33,258 nucleotides of DNA, from assembly GCA_021162935.1 (NCBI GenBank), contig JAGGXR010000007.1, forward strand, positions 1 through 33,258. Reading direction: 5' to 3'. The DNA comes from Deltaproteobacteria bacterium (GTDB taxonomy: Bacteria; Myxococcota_A; Polyangia; HGW-17; SLPX01). Made by a program: the position numbers and the translations under genes. Of the stretch, positions 1,442 to 23,575 are shown one piece after another; position 1 is the stretch's first letter, and every line of letters starts with the position of its first letter. The notes beneath the pieces are model-generated. The model was not told the DNA's origin. It did not search any database and saw nothing but the letters and a program-made list of their open reading frames with translations.

Positions 1442-1854
1442 TCACAGACAGGCCTCCACTCCGTGCCGAAAGTTTTGAAAGCTTGGCGAGCGATTTCGAC
1501 CGGGATCCATCTGTTTGGCGATTCTGTGGGCTGCCTCGATTTTCGGATAGCTGTTTCGGTAAATTCCGTTGCGCTTGAGGAAACGATGCAGGCGCTCCCA
1601 GGTTCCTCCTGGTATTTCAGATGTTTACAATTATCACTCTCCCGATCCACCAGCACGATGATCGTCAGATTTTCACCCTTGTCGATCCGTTTCCGGTAGG
1701 CTCGAAGGCGCTTGGGAAGCGCCTTCAATAGCTTGCCCTTGCTCCCCATGTTGATGGACTTCCAGTGCGCCCGTCCCTGTAGAATCCTCGGCATGACTTC
1801 ACGAAGCGCAGCTTCCATCGAAGCTTCTTCCACCAGTATCTCCAGTCGCGTCAT
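1442..1854 (-). pseudogene. DUF4276-type protein gene with internal deletion and frameshift
   Basis: The ATG at 1854 overlaps the stop codon of the upstream ATPase gene (ATGA), so the pair was translationally coupled. The first roughly 79 codons match the start of DUF4276 proteins: LEILVEE followed by SMEAALR, and a VLVDRESDNC strand with acidic residues. The original frame then turns to unrelated sequence. Two bases on, another frame resumes the family C-terminus, reading IPGGTWERLHRFLKRNG, then PKIEAAHRIAKQMDPGRNRS and a stop at 1442-1444. The junction lies near 1610-1620. The middle part of the family, roughly 80 residues in intact members, is missing. I read this as a deletion that destroyed the gene; an assembly error is the alternative. 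The uninterrupted frame continues to 1282, but its last part is out of frame with the family. Confidence 0.8.
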
Positions 1855-3056
1855 TCCACGACCTCCGGGGCAAAGGGATCACCCCCCTCGAAATGCCCTT
1901 CCATCCACAGTTCCCCCAACGATGCGCCTTCCTGAAGGAATTCCTTGATGCCGGGCATGTCGGCGACTCGCTTTGCCTGGGTGTAGCCATTATTCGCCCG
2001 GTATAGCACACGCACCTGTTCAGGTTTGAGTCGATCGATAATAAATGGCGAATGGGTGGTGACGATGAGTTGGGTGCGCTCCGAGGCGAGATCGCACTCT
2101 TCTGCCAGCTCCGACAGCAGTTTGGGATGTAAGTAGTTTTCCGGTTCCTCAATACCGATGAGTTGTGGCGGATCGGGGTCGTATAGCAAGGTCAAGTAGG
2201 CCATCATCTTCAGAGTGCCATCTGAGGCGAAACGCGCCAAAATGGGTGATGAGAAGGGACCGTCTTTCACCTGCAAGAGCAAGCTGCCGTCGTCGAGTCG
2301 CTTGGAACTGACCTTTTCGATGCGTGGAATGCGACGGCGCAACGCATCAAAAATCTGTTTAAGACGCTCAGGGTATTGATCGCCAAGATATTGAATGACA
2401 TTGGGCAGGTTGTCGCCGGTGGCCGAGAGCCGCTCCTCCGCGCCGGCTTCTGGCCGTCCACGGGCCGCATCCGCCGACAGATACGACAGGTGCCAACTGG
2501 TAATGAAGTTGCGCAGTGCAATCACCCGGGGATTCTCGCCCAATTGACCAAGGGTGTTGACTGCCAGCACATCAGGCCCTGAAAGGGGTTTTTCGATCCG
2601 TTTGTCTTCTGCTTCCGGTTGTTCTCCGGTAATGACCTGGCCTTTTCCGAGACGATAATCGAGAAAACGGAAGGGCGTGCCGGGATGGGTACGCTTCCAA
2701 CGCAGAAACTCGTGCTTGACGACCGGGCCACGGGAGGTCTCATCGATTTCCAGGTGATAGGTGATCAATGGCGTCCCTGGCCGCTCCCGGTATTGAAGCT
2801 CGATGACGATCGGGCCATCAGAATCACGGCTGCGAAGCTCCTTGAAACGGCCGCGCCTATCCCAGGCTTTTTTTAAGCTCTCATTGAAGCATTCTGAAAG
2901 AAAGGCAAATACATCGAACACTGTCGATTTGCCACTGCCGTTGGGGCCCACCAGAACGGTAAGTGGTGTCAGTTTTTCTAACCGTACATCCCGCAATGCC
3001 CGATAATTCCTAATGTGAAGTGTTTTGACGCGCGGTGGCTCGATATGTTCGGTCAT
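1851..3056 (-). CDS. AAA ATPase of the OLD/RecF-like (AAA_15/AAA_21) group, defence-type
   Basis: A 401-residue SMC/ABC-like ATPase. Walker A is GPNGSGKST at residues 37-45, a signature-like segment lies near 277-290, Walker B is [13 protein letters not shown] at 299-311, and the switch histidine is in VTTHSP at 332-337. It has no TOPRIM nuclease domain of its own, unlike full-length OLD proteins. The start at 3056 is preferred over upstream codons because GAGGAG lies about 6 bases before it and the family fold ([16 protein letters not shown]) begins at residue 9. The next gene, DUF4276, overlaps its stop. ATPase plus DUF4276 pairs occur in defence islands and may act like split OLD systems (inference). 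With the partner broken, the ATPase may be an orphan. Confidence 0.85.
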
Positions 3057-3222
3057 CACAAACTCCTCACATTGGCAATGTCGGTCTGTTCCAGGAAAGG
3101 TGGAGAGGTTGGTCGAGGGTGACAATGTTTATGTGTAAGATGCGCTGGAGAAAGTTAGGAGACAAAGCGGAGTGACATGGATTTCCGGCAGAAAAATGAG
3201 GGAAATGGGGTGGTGATCCGCA

Positions 3223-6956: not shown

Positions 6957-7372
6957 GTCGATGGAGCCAGGCCCGTTTGAGTGTCCATATTTATCTCAGT
7001 GTCCTGGCCTGCGCAAGACACCCGTGCGACCATGGAGACCTGGATGGGATTCCCGACGACGAGGAGCCGAGGTCGGACGTGACAGACACCGTTCCCTATC
7101 ACAGGACCTTCGACGGAAACGACCTCTGCTCTTTGACCGTGGACCAGTCCTGGTGGAGACGATCCTCTGCTCGAGAACTGAGGGGACGAATCGTTATCGT
7201 TCGTTTTTGCATATTTGTCCTTGACAGGTCGTAGTCTGCCTTCATTCTATTAACAAGGTGGAAAACAACAGGTGGCAGGCCACGTGGCGCCTCGATGTTT
7301 TTTATCTCGATGGTTTTTGTACTAAAGACCGTGGCGCTTGAATTTGGATCATCCTATGTGGAGGAACCTGAC
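6957..7372. other. Divergent intergenic region
   Basis: This 416-base stretch separates the minus-strand membrane glycosyltransferase gene from the plus-strand Rrf2 gene and must hold promoters for both. The right half is distinctly more AT-rich than its surroundings. No credible gene is seen; a plus-strand open frame entering from 6766 is antisense to the glycosyltransferase and not convincing. Confidence 0.6.
7221..7251 (+). promoter_or_regulatory. Possible sigma70-type promoter of the Rrf2 gene
   Basis: A perfect TTGACA at 7221-7226 is followed after 18-19 bases by TTCTAT/TCTATT, a weak -10 match, in an AT-rich stretch about 120 bases before the Rrf2 start. The -10 element is poor, so this is tentative. 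Rrf2 proteins often regulate their own promoter; I did not find a clear IscR-type palindrome. Confidence 0.35.
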
Positions 7373-7801
7373 GTGTTGAAGTTATCGACCAAGGGGAGAT
7401 ATGGATTGCGAGCCATGGCGGAACTGGCAGGACGGTGCAACGGCGAGCCGGTCCTTCTCGACGACCTGTCGGAGGCACAGCACATTCCGAAAAAGTATCT
7501 CTACGCTTTGTTTGGTGCGCTCAAGAATGCGGGTCTGATTCGGAGCACGAGAGGTGCGGGCGGCGGCTACATGTTGACCAGGCCGGCTGGTCAGATCACG
7601 GTGCTCGACGTGGTGACGGCCCTCGAAGGGCCGTTGGATCTCGTCGAATGCGTGGGCCATCCCGAGCAGTGCGGTCAGCATGCGCATTGCCCCACCGCGG
7701 TTCTGTGGGCTGATTTGAGCAAGATGATTCAAGACTATCTTGGAGGGATGACGTTGCTGGACGTGATCCCGAAAGATGCAGATGATCGAGAGTCCGGCTG
7801 A
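7373..7801 (+). CDS. Rrf2/IscR-family transcriptional regulator
   Basis: 142 residues. The N-terminus LKLSTKGRYGLRAM and the later YLYALFGALKNAGLIRS and GAGGGYML form the winged helix-turn-helix typical of Rrf2. Three cysteines near residues 92-105 (C-x6-C-x5-C, ECVGHPEQCGQHAHC) match the iron-sulfur-ligand region of IscR-like members, which sense Fe-S status or redox. The GTG at 7373 is chosen because GGAGGA lies seven bases before it and the family starts here; an upstream in-frame ATG at 7295 would add 26 residues not seen in the family. It is followed on the same strand by LarE and BioB, both sulfur/Fe-S enzymes, so these are plausible targets (inference). Confidence 0.87.
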   Translation: MLKLSTKGRYGLRAMAELAGRCNGEPVLLDDLSEAQHIPKKYLYALFGALKNAGLIRSTRGAGGGYMLTRPAGQITVLDVVTALEGPLDLVECVGHPEQCGQHAHCPTAVLWADLSKMIQDYLGGMTLLDVIPKDADDRESG

Positions 7802-7932
7802 CGCGCGACGATGCCTTTTGGGTCCATGCACCGGAACATGCTCCTGTCGCTCGTTTTTGCCGGTATACAATCCTGTCGATGGGGCGCGCGAAGTCGAACC
7901 GCATGGCGTCGTGGCCCCAGGAGGAGCCGGTG

Positions 7933-8874
7933 ATGGCGACAGAACCGATGGCGAAATCGTTGAATGATGAGCACAGGGGCGAACCGGATGGCCTTGAGTC
8001 CACCATGGTTCGCGGTTCCGAAGGTACGGACCAAGGCGCAGTGGAAGGGACTCCGCTCGATCGGGCGCACCTCAAGGCCAAGTACGAGGGTTTGAAACAG
8101 ATTTTGGGTGGGATGGATGGGGCGGTCGTGGCCTTTTCGGGTGGGGTGGACAGCACCCTGCTGCTGGCGGTTGCGCACGAGGTGCTCGGAGATCGGGTTT
8201 TGGCCGTGACCGCGACATCCTGCATCTATCCGGCATCGACCAAGCGGCGCGCACAGGCGCTGGCCGACGAATTCGGGGTGCGACATGTTGTGATCGAATC
8301 GAATCAAATGGACGTGGCCGAATTCGTGCAGAACAGTCCCAGGCGTTGCTATCATTGCAAGGTATCGCTGTACCTGCAGTTCCTCGAGATCGCCGAGGCG
8401 GAAGGGCTCGGCGTGGTGCTCGATGGGTCGAATGTGGATGACGCGGCAGACTACAGACCCGGGCGTCAGGCCGGCATCAAGTTCGGGGTCCGGTCTCCCA
8501 TGGTCGAGGCCGGCCTCGGTAAGGCAGACATCCGTCAGTTGGCCCGCGCTCGCGGGTTGCCCAACTGGGACCTGCCAGCGGCTGCATGTCTGGCAAGTCG
8601 AATTCCGTATGGGGAGCAGATCACGAAGGAGCGACTTGCTCGCATCGACAAGGCCGAAGCCTTTCTCCATGGCCTGGGTTTCACCCAGGTTCGGGTCCGG
8701 GACCATGGGGCCATCGTTCGTATCGAAGTTTCCGTGGATGAGATGTCGAGGATCCTGGCCGGCGGTCTGTCCAGCCGGGTCGCTGAGAAGTTCCGCCAAC
8801 TTGGTTGGGCCTACGTCACCGTGGACATCGAGGGCTACCAGATGGGGACCATGAATCGAGTCTTGACCGGATAG
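7933..8874 (+). CDS. larE: LarE-family ATP-dependent sulfur transferase
   Basis: 313 residues, start at 7933 supported by AGGAGG eight bases upstream. An earlier in-frame ATG at 7879 exists but lacks this. The PP-loop ATP pyrophosphatase motif SGGVDS is at about 69-74. LarE adenylates and sulfurates pyridinium dicarboxylate mononucleotide when making the nickel-pincer cofactor of lactate racemase. The classical enzyme uses one sacrificial Cys. This one has three conserved-looking cysteines, CYHC at about 139/142 and Cys219 in PAAACLASR, the pattern of LarE proteins reported to carry a [4Fe-4S] cluster that binds an extra sulfide and can turn over. LarB and LarC are not in this window. It sits 58 bases before bioB. 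An alternative role in sulfur supply for another pathway is possible. Confidence 0.88.
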   Translation: MATEPMAKSLNDEHRGEPDGLESTMVRGSEGTDQGAVEGTPLDRAHLKAKYEGLKQILGGMDGAVVAFSGGVDSTLLLAVAHEVLGDRVLAVTATSCIYPASTKRRAQALADEFGVRHVVIESNQMDVAEFVQNSPRRCYHCKVSLYLQFLEIAEAEGLGVVLDGSNVDDAADYRPGRQAGIKFGVRSPMVEAGLGKADIRQLARARGLPNWDLPAAACLASRIPYGEQITKERLARIDKAEAFLHGLGFTQVRVRDHGAIVRIEVSVDEMSRILAGGLSSRVAEKFRQLGWAYVTVDIEGYQMGTMNRVLTG

Positions 8875-8932
8875 CACCTTCATCCTATCAATAGCGCCTT
8901 CGTCCTAATCAGTTGTTCGTAAGGAGCATCCG

Positions 8933-9901
8933 ATGACAGGTATTTCCAATCGTGAGGCCCTCGATCTCATGGGGGCCGAAGGCACGGAATTCTATGATTT
9001 GATGCATCGAGCCGGGCGGCTGCGCAGCGAGCATGATGACAGGGGAATTTCCCTCTGTGCCATCCTGAACGCCAAGAGCGGCCATTGCCCTCAGGATTGT
9101 GTCTTTTGTGCCCAGTCCTCCCACAATCAGGCAACGATCGAAACCTATCCGCTCATGTCCGCGGATCGGATGGTGGCTGCCGCCGATCGCGCAAGACGCG
9201 ACGGGGCGCGCCATTTCTCTATCGTGACGTCGGGCAAAGCGGTGACGGCCGAGTCCGAGGTAGCGGCCATCGCGGCGGCGATTCGGAGAATCAGCGACAT
9301 GGAATCGTTGTCGGCCTGTGCCTCGCTCGGCATCCTATCCGTCGAGGTGCTCACCCGACTGCGGGACGCAGGGCTGCATCGGTTTCATCACAATTTGGAG
9401 ACGGCCGAGAGTTTCTTTCCGAACATCTGCACGACGAGTGCCTATGCAGACCGGGTGCGTACCATCGAGGCAGCCAAGTCCATCGGCCTTTCGGTGTGCG
9501 CTGGCGGCCTGTTCGGCATGGGGGAAAGCCGCCAGCAGCGGGTGGAATTGTTGGCCACCCTTCGCGATCTCGAGGTGGATTCGGTGCCCATTAATTTTTT
9601 GAATCCGATTCCAGGGACGAAGTTGGAGCACATGGACGATCTTTCGCCCATGGAGGCACTTCGGATTATCGCCGTCGCCCGATTGATGATGCCGGACCGT
9701 GAGATTCGAATCGCGGGCGGCAGGATGAGAAACCTGCGGGATCTGCACTCGTGGATTTTCCTTGCCGGAGCCAATGGACTGATGATCGGCGACTATCTGA
9801 CGACCACCGGGCGTCGGGTGGACGACGATCTGACCTTGTTGGCCGACCAGGGCCTGTATCCCGTGGGCCGCAGTCCCGATGGACCGCAGGAACCGAACTG
9901 A
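8933..9901 (+). CDS. bioB: Biotin synthase (radical SAM)
   Basis: 322 residues; AAGGAG six bases before the ATG. BioB inserts sulfur into dethiobiotin using two 5'-deoxyadenosyl radicals. The radical-SAM motif CPQDCVFC gives Cys52, Cys56 and Cys59. Of the canonical [2Fe-2S] ligands of the E. coli enzyme (Cys97, Cys128, Cys188, Arg260), equivalents of the last three are seen at Cys129 (SACASLG), Cys189 (SVCAGG) and Arg264 (IAGGR). The first is replaced by Ser96 (HFSIVTSGK), and an additional cysteine appears at Cys166 (FFPNICTT). This pattern resembles the BioB group of many anaerobes, reported to use a different auxiliary cluster. No other biotin genes are present here. It is probably co-transcribed with larE. 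Confidence 0.95.
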   Translation: MTGISNREALDLMGAEGTEFYDLMHRAGRLRSEHDDRGISLCAILNAKSGHCPQDCVFCAQSSHNQATIETYPLMSADRMVAAADRARRDGARHFSIVTSGKAVTAESEVAAIAAAIRRISDMESLSACASLGILSVEVLTRLRDAGLHRFHHNLETAESFFPNICTTSAYADRVRTIEAAKSIGLSVCAGGLFGMGESRQQRVELLATLRDLEVDSVPINFLNPIPGTKLEHMDDLSPMEALRIIAVARLMMPDREIRIAGGRMRNLRDLHSWIFLAGANGLMIGDYLTTTGRRVDDDLTLLADQGLYPVGRSPDGPQEPN

Positions 9902-9939: not shown

Positions 9940-11427
9940 TCAGGATGGCTTGAGGAGGAAGCGGTTCTTGTGGGATCGGGTTTCTCCCACACTGCTGACC
10001 TGGATGGCGGGCCGGTCCACGACCGGGCAGTGATTCTCGCAGATGCCGCATCCAATGCAGCGCGACGGTTCGACCCGGGGCAGGAGGAGTTTGGAACCGT
10101 CGCTTCGTCTCCCCTCCACGGTGACGATGGCCTTTGGCGAGACGGGGCACACCTCTTCACAGACGAGGCAGGGCCGATCCATGCCCCAGGCCAGGCAGCG
10201 GCCCCGATCAATGAAGGCGGTACCGATCTTGACTGGTGGTTTGCCCGGCCGGCCCCGTCGATCGTCGAGGGTCAGTTGCCGGATGGCGCCCGTGGGGCAA
10301 TGTTCGCCGCAGAGGGTGCAGGTGGACTCGCAGAAACCGATGGTGGGAATGAGGACCGGAGTCCACAGCGCCTCGATGCCGCCCTGGCCTTGGGCTGGCT
10401 GGAGTCCACCCGTGGGGCAGACGTCCATGCATGCGGCGCACTTGACGCAACGACTCAGAAATTCGCGCTCGGAAAGGGAGCCAGGAGGCCGGATGAGGGC
10501 CGGGTCGGGCTTGCGAGTCGATCCGGTGCCGGATCGCAGCAAAGGGTAGGCAACGAGCCCGGCCCCTGTTGCGGTCAGGATTCGACGCCTGGTGAGATCC
10601 GGACTCTGGTCGGACTGGATCTTGAACGTGTTCGATCGACCGTAGGACAACGCGTGCTCGGGGCAGACTGTGACGCAATTGAAGCACAGGACGCATTCGC
10701 TCGGGCGGAAGGCGCCTTGGGGATTGGCGGCGCCGTGGCAGACCTGGTTGCAGAGTCCGCAATCCGTGCATTTGGCTGGGTCTCGGCGGATCTGGAACAG
10801 GGACCATCTGGCGGCCAACCCCAGCAGTGCGCCCAGTGGGCAGGCCGTGCGGCACCAGGCCCTCGGAACGAACCTCGTGGCCACGAGGATGGAAACGAGG
10901 AGCATGCCGGTCACGAAGGCGCCGGCGCCCAATCGCTGTGAGGCGCCCAGCGGCAGGCCGGTAGCCTGGAGCGATGGAACGACTAGCCCAGTCACGCTTC
11001 GAAGAAAAAGGGCCAACGGATCCAGGAGTCCGATTTGGACCGGGCCCAGGACGGCGAGCACGAGCAGGGCGGTCAGGATTCCGTACTTGAGGTGATAGAT
11101 GGCTCGGTATCGATTTTTCGCCTTCTTGATCGATGCTTTCCGGCTGGCCGGCAAGACCGCAGCCAGGTCCTGGCTCACGCCGAGAGGACAGACCCATGAG
11201 CAGAAGAAGCGTCCGAAGAACAGGGTCGCGATGAGCACGACGATGCCCATCCACAGACCGGCATAGAGCACGCCCGTGGCGAGCGACGTGGTGACTGCCA
11301 CCAGTGGATCGAGTTCCATGAGGAACCCGGCGGTGAAGCCGGAGTCATATCGTCCCGCCGCCATCAGGGACAAGACGATGAATCCGACGAGCAGTGTCCC
11401 GCCGATGATTTTTCGCAGAAGACTCAT
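9940..11427 (-). CDS. NapH/NapG-like membrane polyferredoxin fusion
   Basis: 495 residues from the ATG at 11427; a GTG 30 bases upstream is an alternative start. The N-terminal half has four to five membrane helices and the two paired motifs CSWVCPLG (about 76-83) and CRTACPLG (about 192-199), as in NapH/NosR/CcoG-type proteins. Two [4Fe-4S] motifs follow: CTDCGLCNQVC at 220-230 and CVLCFNCVTVC at 245-255. At 280-297 comes TRRRILTATGAGLVAYPLL, which looks like a twin-arginine signal or second anchor. After it lie four more cluster motifs (CVKCAACMDVC, CESTCTLCGEHC, CLVCEEVC, CIGCGICENHC), as in NapG/MauM. It is likely a quinol-oxidising electron conduit to a periplasmic reductase; no such reductase is nearby. 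It converges on bioB with a 38-base gap. Confidence 0.85.
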   Translation of the reverse strand: MSLLRKIIGGTLLVGFIVLSLMAAGRYDSGFTAGFLMELDPLVAVTTSLATGVLYAGLWMGIVVLIATLFFGRFFCSWVCPLGVSQDLAAVLPASRKASIKKAKNRYRAIYHLKYGILTALLVLAVLGPVQIGLLDPLALFLRSVTGLVVPSLQATGLPLGASQRLGAGAFVTGMLLVSILVATRFVPRAWCRTACPLGALLGLAARWSLFQIRRDPAKCTDCGLCNQVCHGAANPQGAFRPSECVLCFNCVTVCPEHALSYGRSNTFKIQSDQSPDLTRRRILTATGAGLVAYPLLRSGTGSTRKPDPALIRPPGSLSEREFLSRCVKCAACMDVCPTGGLQPAQGQGGIEALWTPVLIPTIGFCESTCTLCGEHCPTGAIRQLTLDDRRGRPGKPPVKIGTAFIDRGRCLAWGMDRPCLVCEEVCPVSPKAIVTVEGRRSDGSKLLLPRVEPSRCIGCGICENHCPVVDRPAIQVSSVGETRSHKNRFLLKPS

Positions 11428-11493
11428 ACAGGACTCACTCCCCGATGGCAGGTGCACTCCCCGAAGATCGGGAGCATTCCTCGATGACGGGTT

Positions 11494-11913
11494 TTACTCT
11501 CCGATGATTTTCACCAGGACCCGCTTGCGGCGTCGGCCATCGAATTCTCCGTAGAAGATCTGCTCCCAGGGGCCGAAGTCGAGCCGACCCTCGGTCACGG
11601 CCACCACCACCTCTCGGCCCATGACCTGTCGCTTTATGTGGGCATCGGCGTTGTCCTCGCCCGTTCGATTGTGTCGATACTTGCTCGTGGGCTCGTGGGG
11701 TGCCAGGCCTTCGAGCCATTCCTCGTAGTCGTGGTGCAGACCCGATTCGTCGTCGTTGATGAACACGCTCGCCGTGATGTGCATGGCGTTGACCAGGCAC
11801 AGGCCTTCTTTGATGCCGCTTTCGGTCAGGGCATCTGTGACCTTCGGCGTGATGTTGATGAACGCGCGCCTGGTGGGTACTTCGAACCAGAGTTCTTTTC
11901 GATGGGACTTCAT
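11494..11913 (-). CDS. YjbQ / UPF0047 family protein
   Basis: 139 residues, the usual length for the family. Signature segments are [30 protein letters not shown], and [15 protein letters not shown], with the C-terminal [18 protein letters not shown]. Family members form trimers and can show thiamine-phosphate synthase-like activity in vivo; the physiological role is unsettled. AAGGAG lies about 11 bases before the ATG. It lies 66 bases upstream of the polyferredoxin on the same strand, so the two may share a transcript. No link in function is obvious. Confidence 0.9.
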
Positions 11914-20176: not shown

Positions 20177-23100
20177 ATGTCGTTCGTGGTTCGGACCGGC
20201 CGATCGACGAAACTTTTTCGAGTCGGTTTGGATCGTCCTGCCTCTGGCCGAGGTGCGACGGGTGCAGGTTTTGCGCGTTGTGTTGCGATGGGCGCAGTTT
20301 TTGCGTTGGATCATGCTTCGGATGCGCTTTTTGCGTGCAATGATGCGGTGGAGTTGGCTTTGAGGGAACGAAGGAATCAGGTACGGCGTCTCGTGGCGGG
20401 TGGCACCATGCTCGGTGTGGTCACGATGGCCTGGATGGCTGGATTGGAACTCTTTGCCTGTTGGGGATCTGGGGCCTGGCCATCGCCCGGTATGGGGGAC
20501 CGTCTCATCTATGGCAGCCTCCTTTTCTTGGTGGTGTTCGGGGCCGGTCCCCTGTTGGGCGTGACGGCAGGCCTGTTGGCGCTGGCGGTGGGCAATCTGT
20601 CGGAAGTGATGGCCAAGAAGCGGGTGGACGAGCCCAAGTATCGGGTGTGGATGTATAGCCTCTTGATGAGTCCCTTTGTGGCGATGGTGGCGAGTCGTGC
20701 GTTTCGCGGGCGGCGTGCCAGCCAGTTCGCCCACAAGGACCTGTTGGCGCTGGCCACGGGCCTTGGGCTGCTGCTCATCGCGTATGGCGCATTGCGGGCC
20801 CTGCAGTGGGCGAAAACGCGGATTCTGATTGGACAGTCCGGCAGATGGGAGACCTCTGGATACGCGCTTGGTTTGCTGGTTGTGTCGGCGCTCGCCCAAC
20901 GGGCCGACGAACTGGTGCTGCAGGGGCTCTACCCATTCGTCCATTGGGGATTGGCGGGCATCAGCATCCTTGCGGCCTTTCTTGGGTTCTACACGTGGTA
21001 CCTTCTTTTGAGAGGGAAGGGGCGGCGGTTTTGGGCTAGGATCACGGCTCCATCGACGGTAGTGACCGTTGCGGTGGCCATGACGATCCTTGGGGGGGCG
21101 GCGCTTGCCCACCTGGCTCGGCGACATCGTTTGCGGCCGTTCGCCTACCGACGCACGGTCCTGACGGCCAAGATTATGGCCTTGACGAATCGCGCGGGGT
21201 TTTTACCACACGCCGCGAGTCTGGATGAGGTGGATTCGGATGTCGTGGTCGTGCCCTCCGGGGTGGGACCGAGGATTCCGGACGCCGATGTGATTTTGGT
21301 GAGCATCGATGCGCTTCGGGCTGACATGTTGGGTCTCTACGGGAGCAAGCTTGGTCTGACGCCGAACATCGATCGCTTGTTCGGCAAAGCGGTTCGTTTC
21401 GAGCACGCCTACACGGCCATGCCACAGACCTCGTATGCCGTCACGAGCCTCATGACGGGAAGTTACGTGAGTTCACCGGACCGGGCGTCTGGACCGAAAC
21501 GGACGACCATTGCCGACGTGCTGCGGCGATTCGGATACAAGACGGCCGCTTTCTATCCGCCGGCCGTGTTTTTCATCGATCATCAGCGCTTCATATCGTA
21601 CGAACAGACCAGGTATGGATTCGAATACTTCGTGGTCCAGTATTTCAAGACCAAGTACGATGACGACGCAGCGGGCCGGATCGGGCGAGTGCTCGCGTTT
21701 CTCAAGGAATGGCAGGATGGGCTGAAGTCGGGCAAGGAGAAGGGGGGCCGACATTTCTTCATCTGGGTGCACCTCTTCGAGCCTCATCATCCCTATCAGA
21801 CGCGCGATGGGTTCGGCCCCAAACATCCCTCGTCGGACAAGGAGCGGTACGAGACCGAAGTGGCCTATGCAGACCGGCAGGTCGGACGGCTCTACCGTGC
21901 CGTGAAAAAGATACGTCCCAACACTTTGTTCGTCTTGACCGCGGATCACGGTGAGGCCTTTGGAGATCATGACACGTCCGCGCATGGCACCTCGCTGTAC
22001 GTGGAGCAGGCGAGGGTTCCCTTGCTCATGGATGCACAGGGACTCAAGCCCAAGGTCGTGCAGCAGCCGGTCAGTCTGACGGACGTGGCGCCCACCATCC
22101 TTTCCTTACTCAATCTCCCTGTTCCCGCGTCCATGGAGGGGGCTGACGTGACTTCTGCCATGGCGCCCGGTTTCAAGGTCGTGTTGCCGCCCGTCTTTTC
22201 GGAGTTGGTGTTGCCCCAGCGTCATCTAGAATCCGTGGTCATGGGCCACGAGCGACTCATCGTGGACCGCACTGCTGGGACCTATGAATTGTACCGTATC
22301 GATCGGGATGCATCGGAAACGAAACCGCAGGATTTGGATTCCGATCCCAAGAATAAGCGGGAGGCCGGTAAGCTGCTCGGATTCCTGCGCAAGTGGAACC
22401 AAGGGGGCATGGCGGCTGTTCGTCGTAAGGCATCGTCGGGTGTTCATCCTGCGGCTGCCAATCGAAGGTTCTTGCTTTCGGGCAGTCTGGAACAGCGCCG
22501 GAGGGCATCGGCTGTCCTCATGAGACGTCCGAATATGGTGCCCGAGGTTGCTCAGGTGCGTTCGTTCCTGGAGGGCGAATCGGACCAGGAGGTCCGCGAT
22601 CGGCTTACGATCGTGCTTGGCCTCAAAGGAGACAAGACACAGGCGAAGGTGCTCCGCCGACTGGCGGTTCGCCCCGATCTACCGCCAGAGATGCTCCTTG
22701 CGGCTGCGAATGCGTTGGCTCGACTCCACGACCGGGCGGCCGTGCGCCCTCTCGAATCGCTTTTTCCCTCCCTTCCCGACCTGGAGCAAAAAAGAGCGGT
22801 GCTCCGTACCCTGGGGCATCTCAAGGACCCACGGGCACTTGGACTCCTCGGGCGGATTCTGAATCGTCCAGGCCTCGCCATGCAGGCCGCTTTGGCCATC
22901 GGAGACCTTGGTGATCGCCAGGGAGTGGCCTTGCTGGTGGGGCGATTGTCCAAATCGGATTGTCAGGCCGTGCTGCGCAAGGCCATCGTGGAATCCCTGG
23001 GGCGACTCGGCGGCATCAAGGCGCGCTCGGCCATCTTATCCCTGATACGGCACGAGGCGGAACCACTCGTGGTGGCGGCGGGAATCGATGCCCTCGACCG

Positions 23101-23575
23101 CATCGGGGCCCTGGGCCTCGTGGGTTGGCCTTTTGTGGGACGGGCCAGATTGGCCCGACTGTTGGCCTGTGACGGGGCGGGTTGCAGGCTGACCAAGGAG
23201 GGCGCTTCGAATGGACCAGCTTCGAAAAGCGTTTCGTCGCATGGATCTGCATCGCCGGCTGGGGCGAAGTTGCCCTTTACCGGTCCAGGACTGCTCTGGA
23301 TCGTCACGTCGAACGGCAAGGCGGCACGGGCCATTTCTTGTCCTGGAATCAGGCGATTCGCTGGTGGACGGATCCTGGCATTGACCATCGAGACCGGCGC
23401 TTCTGGCTGGCCGAAGTTGTTGGTGTGGTCTGCCCCCGTCCCGGTCCGGGGGCTTCTGTACCAACGTCGCAAGACGGTTCATGGAGCCAAGGCGGGTCGC
23501 GGTCGGAAGGCGGGTCGCGGTCACGGGTCGGCTCGTGGTCACAAGATGGTTCATCGAGGAAAGAGACGTGGATAG
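20177..23575 (+). CDS. Membrane sulfatase-like (alkaline-phosphatase superfamily) protein with HEAT repeats
   Basis: 1132 residues. Membrane helices occupy about 72-315. The catalytic domain starts DVILVSIDALRADMLGLYG (Asp378 metal ligand), then QTSYAVTSLMTG with Thr418 at the nucleophile position, VHLFEPHHPY (about 531), TADHGEAFGDHD (Asp590, His591) and SAHGTSLYVEQARVPLL (His603). Residues about 790-1010 are short helical HEAT-like repeats. The last 40 residues are Gly/Arg/Lys-rich. Classical sulfatases need Cys or Ser turned into formylglycine in CxPSR; Thr there is found in phosphoglycerol or phosphoethanolamine transferases and a sulfatase-like subgroup, so I favour a phosphotransferase-like or lipid-modifying role. 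The start is uncertain; a TTG near 20359 with GGTGGAG upstream is an alternative. It is overlapped by the next gene. Confidence 0.75.
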   Translation: MSFVVRTGRSTKLFRVGLDRPASGRGATGAGFARCVAMGAVFALDHASDALFACNDAVELALRERRNQVRRLVAGGTMLGVVTMAWMAGLELFACWGSGAWPSPGMGDRLIYGSLLFLVVFGAGPLLGVTAGLLALAVGNLSEVMAKKRVDEPKYRVWMYSLLMSPFVAMVASRAFRGRRASQFAHKDLLALATGLGLLLIAYGALRALQWAKTRILIGQSGRWETSGYALGLLVVSALAQRADELVLQGLYPFVHWGLAGISILAAFLGFYTWYLLLRGKGRRFWARITAPSTVVTVAVAMTILGGAALAHLARRHRLRPFAYRRTVLTAKIMALTNRAGFLPHAASLDEVDSDVVVVPSGVGPRIPDADVILVSIDALRADMLGLYGSKLGLTPNIDRLFGKAVRFEHAYTAMPQTSYAVTSLMTGSYVSSPDRASGPKRTTIADVLRRFGYKTAAFYPPAVFFIDHQRFISYEQTRYGFEYFVVQYFKTKYDDDAAGRIGRVLAFLKEWQDGLKSGKEKGGRHFFIWVHLFEPHHPYQTRDGFGPKHPSSDKERYETEVAYADRQVGRLYRAVKKIRPNTLFVLTADHGEAFGDHDTSAHGTSLYVEQARVPLLMDAQGLKPKVVQQPVSLTDVAPTILSLLNLPVPASMEGADVTSAMAPGFKVVLPPVFSELVLPQRHLESVVMGHERLIVDRTAGTYELYRIDRDASETKPQDLDSDPKNKREAGKLLGFLRKWNQGGMAAVRRKASSGVHPAAANRRFLLSGSLEQRRRASAVLMRRPNMVPEVAQVRSFLEGESDQEVRDRLTIVLGLKGDKTQAKVLRRLAVRPDLPPEMLLAAANALARLHDRAAVRPLESLFPSLPDLEQKRAVLRTLGHLKDPRALGLLGRILNRPGLAMQAALAIGDLGDRQGVALLVGRLSKSDCQAVLRKAIVESLGRLGGIKARSAILSLIRHEAEPLVVAAGIDALDRIGALGLVGWPFVGRARLARLLACDGAGCRLTKEGASNGPASKSVSSHGSASPAGAKLPFTGPGLLWIVTSNGKAARAISCPGIRRFAGGRILALTIETGASGWPKLLVWSAPVPVRGLLYQRRKTVHGAKAGRGRKAGRGHGSARGHKMVHRGKRRG

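Follow-up and report, generated by a model that had tools for sequence, protein, structure and literature searches.

LarE is the PP-loop sulfurtransferase of nickel-pincer-nucleotide (NPN) synthesis. In the Thermotoga maritima enzyme, three cysteines in a CxxC-C arrangement (a CxxC pair plus a third Cys) hold a [4Fe-4S] cluster, which persulfide from the cysteine desulfurase IscS loads with an extra sulfide. The CxxC-C arrangement is found in most LarE homologs, and the P2CMN phosphate residues of L. plantarum LarE are Ser180, Arg212 and Arg214 (PMC9283937). A type II form of biotin synthase (BioB), whose auxiliary cluster is [4Fe-5S], was published by Lachowicz 2024 (doi 10.1021/jacs.3c05481; cited in PMC11099021 and PMC11138216). 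The original prediction for the locus described here had invoked published clusters with an extra sulfide in both enzymes, and this literature was traced, for LarE in PMC9283937 and for BioB through the two papers that cite Lachowicz 2024.

Here we analyze a 33,258-nucleotide stretch of a deltaproteobacterial genome (contig JAGGXR010000007.1, hereafter the window), in which an Rrf2 regulator, a three-cysteine LarE and a BioB whose first auxiliary-cluster Cys is replaced by Ser lie head to tail on the plus strand. Profile matches, coordinates and alignments confirmed the three genes, their order and their cysteine patterns, all of which had been proposed from the DNA alone. The prediction went further, suggesting that LarE may supply or reload sulfur for BioB, or that an Fe-S-sensing Rrf2 controls both. 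With a probability of roughly 0.68, we read the locus as an ordinary nickel-pincer LarE and an ordinary anaerobe-type BioB that share sulfur supply and control under an IscR-like Rrf2, and not as LarE feeding BioB.

The three-gene locus and its proteins

The genes are separated by 131 bp (Rrf2-LarE) and 58 bp (LarE-BioB). A promoter consensus scan returned no site ahead of rrf2; the candidate in Table 1 was not scored by that scan. TTGACA is present upstream of rrf2 in 8/8 LarE-linked loci listed, and a search for palindromes upstream of eight rrf2 genes revealed no shared operator.

Table 1. Positions of features in the window, and of genes and gene runs named in the text for its genome and for other loci
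Feature	Location	Strand	Basis or remark
Possible promoter ahead of rrf2	window 7221..7250	+	TTGACA, 18 nt, TTCTAT (weak second hexamer); read from sequence
rrf2, Rrf2-family regulator (IscR/CymR-like)	window 7373..7801	+	GTG start; 142 aa; Cys93/100/106 triad
larE, PP-loop sulfurtransferase of NPN synthesis	window 7933..8874 (ORF from 7879)	+	TIGR00268, motifs, closest solved structures are LarE
bioB, radical-SAM biotin synthase, probably type II by cysteine pattern	window 8933..9901	+	TIGR00433; aligned to 8VDW, 8VCW, 1R30
Convergent NapH/NapG-like polyferredoxin membrane protein	window 9940..11457	-	right-hand boundary, outside cluster
YjbQ/UPF0047 family gene	window 11494-11913	-	TIGR00149; downstream of polyferredoxin gene
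Large protein, sulfatase/alkaline-phosphatase-type domain	window 20177-23575	+	C-terminal HEAT repeats
AAA_21/AAA_15 ATPase	window 1851-3125	-	OLD/AbiEii-like group
LarB	G000:C129:24163-24789		window's own genome
LarC	G000:C129:24938-26263		directly after LarB
LarA homolog	G000:C1:23185-23781		moderate family match
XdhC-type maturation factor	L076:4844-5773		G001, between LarE and MnmA
Ten-gene Rrf2-to-BioB run	L072:2518-12375		G016:C272
NadA-LarE-BioB-MnmA run	L070:5433-10149; L073:3660-7466; L071:3-3146; L086:8925-13628		one Myxococcota genus and near relative
HydE-like radical-SAM gene	L164:10001-11595		Akkermansia MAG

The window LarE scored 313.6 bits against TIGR00268 (cut-off 150) and contains the motifs SGGVDS, CxxC (CYHC) and a third Cys (AACLASR); the solved structures nearest to it are LarE. 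Its start at ATG 7933 is favored by an AGGAGG-type ribosome site, although the open reading frame begins farther upstream. Alignment to L. plantarum LarE recovered the complete Ser/Arg/Arg set for P2CMN. Among 116 LarE rows examined, every one keeps the three cysteines and both P2CMN arginines, and 96 keep the Ser (Thr in 19, Ala in one). Taken with what PMC9283937 states for most homologs, this makes CxxC-C the usual form of LarE and nothing special to the window. The protein thus shares with T. maritima LarE the PP-loop SGGxDS, the CxxC plus third Cys, the substrate Ser and two Arg, and the company of LarB and LarC in the genome. It differs in that its gene adjoins rrf2 and bioB, away from larB-larC, and in having Ala where T. 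maritima has a dispensable fourth cysteine (Cys174).

The 322-residue BioB scored 388.6 bits against TIGR00433 (cut-off 225), with PF04055 and PF06968 (BATS) domains and a radical-SAM CxxxCxxC at Cys 52/56/59. Its auxiliary site comprises Ser96 (the position of E. coli Cys97), Cys129, an extra Cys166 (NICTT) and Cys189. In alignment, the same four residues occur in 8VDW (278 bits) and 8VCW (225 bits), the two closest solved biotin synthases, whereas E. coli 1R30 (182 bits) has Cys, Cys, Ile and Cys. The two structures appear to be the type II enzymes of Lachowicz 2024, and by its residues the window BioB probably has the published type II pattern: Ser at the first auxiliary Cys, and Cys in C-x-S-L/M-G, I-C-T-T and C-x-G-G. 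Apart from the position of its gene beside larE, we found no difference from type II enzymes that is relevant to mechanism. The genome has no second BioB that passes the family cut-off. No protein in it reached the curated BioA cut-off, and its biotin pathway may therefore be only partly present; another DAPA enzyme, dethiobiotin salvage or an incomplete genome may account for this. The best BioA match (contig C48), considered as a possible center of a biotin operon, proved to be an ornithine aminotransferase.

The regulator scored 127.5 bits against TIGR00738 (cut-off 73.3) and falls short of the equivalog cut-offs for both IscR (122.9 vs 207.55 bits) and CymR (106.6 vs 195 bits). Of its cysteines (22, 93, 100 and 106), the last three lie in the IscR cluster-ligand region, and this triad is kept in 8/8 LarE-adjoining Rrf2 proteins, which makes the Fe-S-type regulator of the original prediction plausible. 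With the IscR/CymR class it shares the Rrf2 domain, three cysteines at the IscR position and, in related loci, neighbors of cysteine and Fe-S metabolism; it departs from that class in lying far under both curated cut-offs and in its C-x6-C-x5-C spacing. Through its IscR-like triad, Rrf2 probably ties expression of the locus to cysteine or Fe-S status.

Gene neighborhoods in relatives

In other genomes LarE and BioB are joined in several ways. The order NadA-LarE-BioB-MnmA occurs in G025, G033, G016 (contig C626) and locus L086, and Rrf2-CysK-LarE-BioB in G019 (C7). A ten-gene run on contig C272 of G016 reads Rrf2-CysK-LarE-NifS-MnmA-ThiF/MoeB-CBS-methyltransferase-CGS-BioB, although this contig could be a contaminant, since G016 has a second LarE-BioB pair on C626. 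In G001, the other of only two genomes seen from the window's family, the order is Rrf2-LarE-XdhC-MnmA (L076), with BioB on a different contig. The deltaproteobacterial MAG locus L139 is the same DNA as G033, and this identity and the tree labels indicate that the phylum of the window is probably Myxococcota.

The NadA-LarE-BioB-MnmA run is conserved within a single Myxococcota genus, and a near relative has it too (Table 1). In the BioB of this run, typed in G025, G033 and G016 C626, a Cys stands two residues ahead of Ser96, position 129 is Ser, and Cys166 and Cys-Cys at 189-190 follow; the BioB of the ten-gene run has all four cysteines (CCCC). Two further candidates, a 'BioB' beside LarE in Akkermansia (L164) and in a proteobacterium (L125), are about 30% identical and HydE-like by motif and were not counted; in the Akkermansia MAG this gene directly follows LarE.

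The rarity of the pairing raises the question of whether its presence in the window is chance or historical gene order with no functional meaning. LarE and BioB lie within 10 kb of each other only in the window's genome and G016 among 86 phylum genomes with both in the matches listed, with G019 as a further case, and adjacency is absent in G001, the sole relative from the window's family. Yet two given genes among about 5000 adjoin by chance in roughly 1 in 2500 genomes, and the pairing occurs in three families with different arrangements; it is therefore rare but not chance. In the LarE tree, BioB-adjacent LarEs fall in several places (three label changes), and they may or may not descend from one old lineage. 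A coincidental origin is opposed by the recurrence of Rrf2 or CysK beside LarE over several phyla. In a context survey of 80 named LarE loci, a sample that leans towards cluster members because the query included them, LarE stands beside Rrf2, CysK or NifS in Lentisphaerota, Latescibacterota, Desulfuromonadaceae and Myxococcota. We consider an adjacency devoid of function unlikely.

Rrf2 might alternatively control only itself and larE, in response to NPN or sulfur need, with bioB expressed independently. Rrf2-LarE pairs without BioB do exist, in G001, L093 and L102, and with CysK in L133 and L141. This account is nonetheless improbable for the window, where a ribosome site lies in the 58 bp between larE and bioB and a sequence scan found no terminator-like or promoter-like site there. 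We infer that rrf2, larE and bioB share a transcript.

The locus can be set beside the Rrf2-led cysteine/sulfur clusters that encode CysK, NifS and MnmA. The regulator family is common to both, and LarE lies inside such clusters in several phyla, but the cluster in the window is reduced to rrf2, larE and bioB. The window cluster itself contains no desulfurase or cysteine synthase gene, so the case for a shared sulfur source comes from its relatives.

Nickel-pincer genes and biotin synthase types across genomes

The original prediction had noted that LarB and LarC are absent, which would leave LarE spare for another task. The absence is correct for the window and incorrect for the genome: LarB is directly followed by LarC on another contig, and a LarA homolog (118.9 bits) lies on a third (Table 1). 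No LarE other than that of the window passes the family cut-off in this genome. Across 284 phylum genomes, 193 have LarE and LarC together, 71 have neither and 20 have one of the two (phi 0.83, p about 5e-45), such that LarC accompanies LarE in 193/199 LarE-positive genomes. Of 39 closer relatives, only one departs from joint presence or absence of LarE and LarB (phi 0.95), and LarC is found in 8/9 further genomes whose LarE sits in a sulfur or BioB cluster. LarE and BioB, by comparison, are barely associated over the 284 genomes (phi 0.13, p 0.04). Combining the presence of LarB, LarC and LarA, the tracking of LarC by LarE and the retained substrate residues, LarE is best read as a nickel-pincer enzyme. 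Of the two findings that the original prediction named as refuting it, one, a lar set elsewhere in the genome, was made, and a LarE left spare for BioB is not supported. The other was not, since larE-bioB adjacency recurs in a few relatives, and it remains plausible that the two genes share control or a sulfur supply.

These data bear directly on whether LarE serves biotin synthesis as a dedicated sulfur donor, supplying or reloading the sulfide of the BioB auxiliary cluster. Such a role would fit the adjacency in the window, in the NadA-LarE-BioB-MnmA clusters and in G019 C7, and a [4Fe-5S] cluster has been reported or proposed for each of the enzyme classes (PMC9283937; PMC11138216, citing Lachowicz 2024). 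Typing of BioB at residues 96, 129, 166 and 189 of the window BioB covered the relatives and a further 100 phylum genomes. BioB with Cys166 is commoner in LarE-positive genomes (34/84 vs 6/44, p 0.002, for related rows uncorrected for kinship), and lifestyle may explain both Cys166 and LarE. The strict type II pattern, however, is not significantly associated with LarE (9/84 LarE-positive vs 2/44 LarE-negative genomes, p 0.33). Type II BioB does not adjoin LarE in G001, G002, G027, G035 and G019 (C40), and two genomes that carry it yielded no LarE. Conversely, 65 phylum genomes have LarE with no BioB found. Every checked genome with the pairing also has LarB or LarC, and LarE both tracks LarC, not BioB, and retains its NPN substrate residues. 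A dedicated donor is thus highly improbable, and the data, a weak correlation aside, lend the proposal that LarE supplies BioB no specific support. A narrower version, in which the extra sulfide on the LarE cluster is handed to the BioB auxiliary cluster in the window's lineage and a few others, making LarE a common sulfide loader of two cofactor pathways under one Rrf2, is likewise highly improbable.

The auxiliary site of phylum BioB proteins is itself diverse. We observed CCIC, CCVC, CCCC, SCVC, SCCC, GCCC, GDCC, SSCC, SDVC and GHVC patterns, several of which fit neither type I nor type II. BioB-family proteins of L060 (G018), L061 (G034) and L059 (G003) score over the cut-off with one of the four auxiliary-site cysteines left.

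Probable shared sulfur supply and control at the locus

Shared supply and control of two conventional enzymes best fits what we observe: the gene identities and motifs, the presence of LarA, LarB and LarC, the co-occurrence data and the recurrent Rrf2-sulfur context. If the chemistry of published homologs carries over, LarE would adenylylate the pyridinium biscarboxylate made by LarB and thiolate this precursor with the extra sulfide on the [4Fe-4S] cluster bound by its three cysteines, after which LarC would insert nickel for the LarA homolog. BioB would separately convert dethiobiotin to biotin using an auxiliary [4Fe-5S]-type cluster of its own. Placement of both enzymes in one locus would reflect a common need for cysteine-desulfurase sulfur and for oxygen-labile Fe-S clusters, and Rrf2 would probably report the Fe-S or cysteine state to that locus.

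Both enzymes are of known kinds, and while the content of the locus is mostly ordinary, its context is mildly notable. Searches of a partial library found no description of the LarE-BioB pairing and no paper joining LarE, Rrf2 and a gene cluster; papers combining LarE, biotin synthase and sulfur have, by their titles and abstracts, no bearing on the pairing. A conserved helper gene for reloading the sulfide of type II biotin synthase would be valuable, and our genome survey indicates that LarE is no general helper but follows the nickel-pincer pathway. LarE does recur in Rrf2-led clusters alongside genes for cysteine synthase, cysteine desulfurase and MnmA, a placement that points to where nickel-pincer synthesis obtains its physiological sulfur and to how it is controlled.
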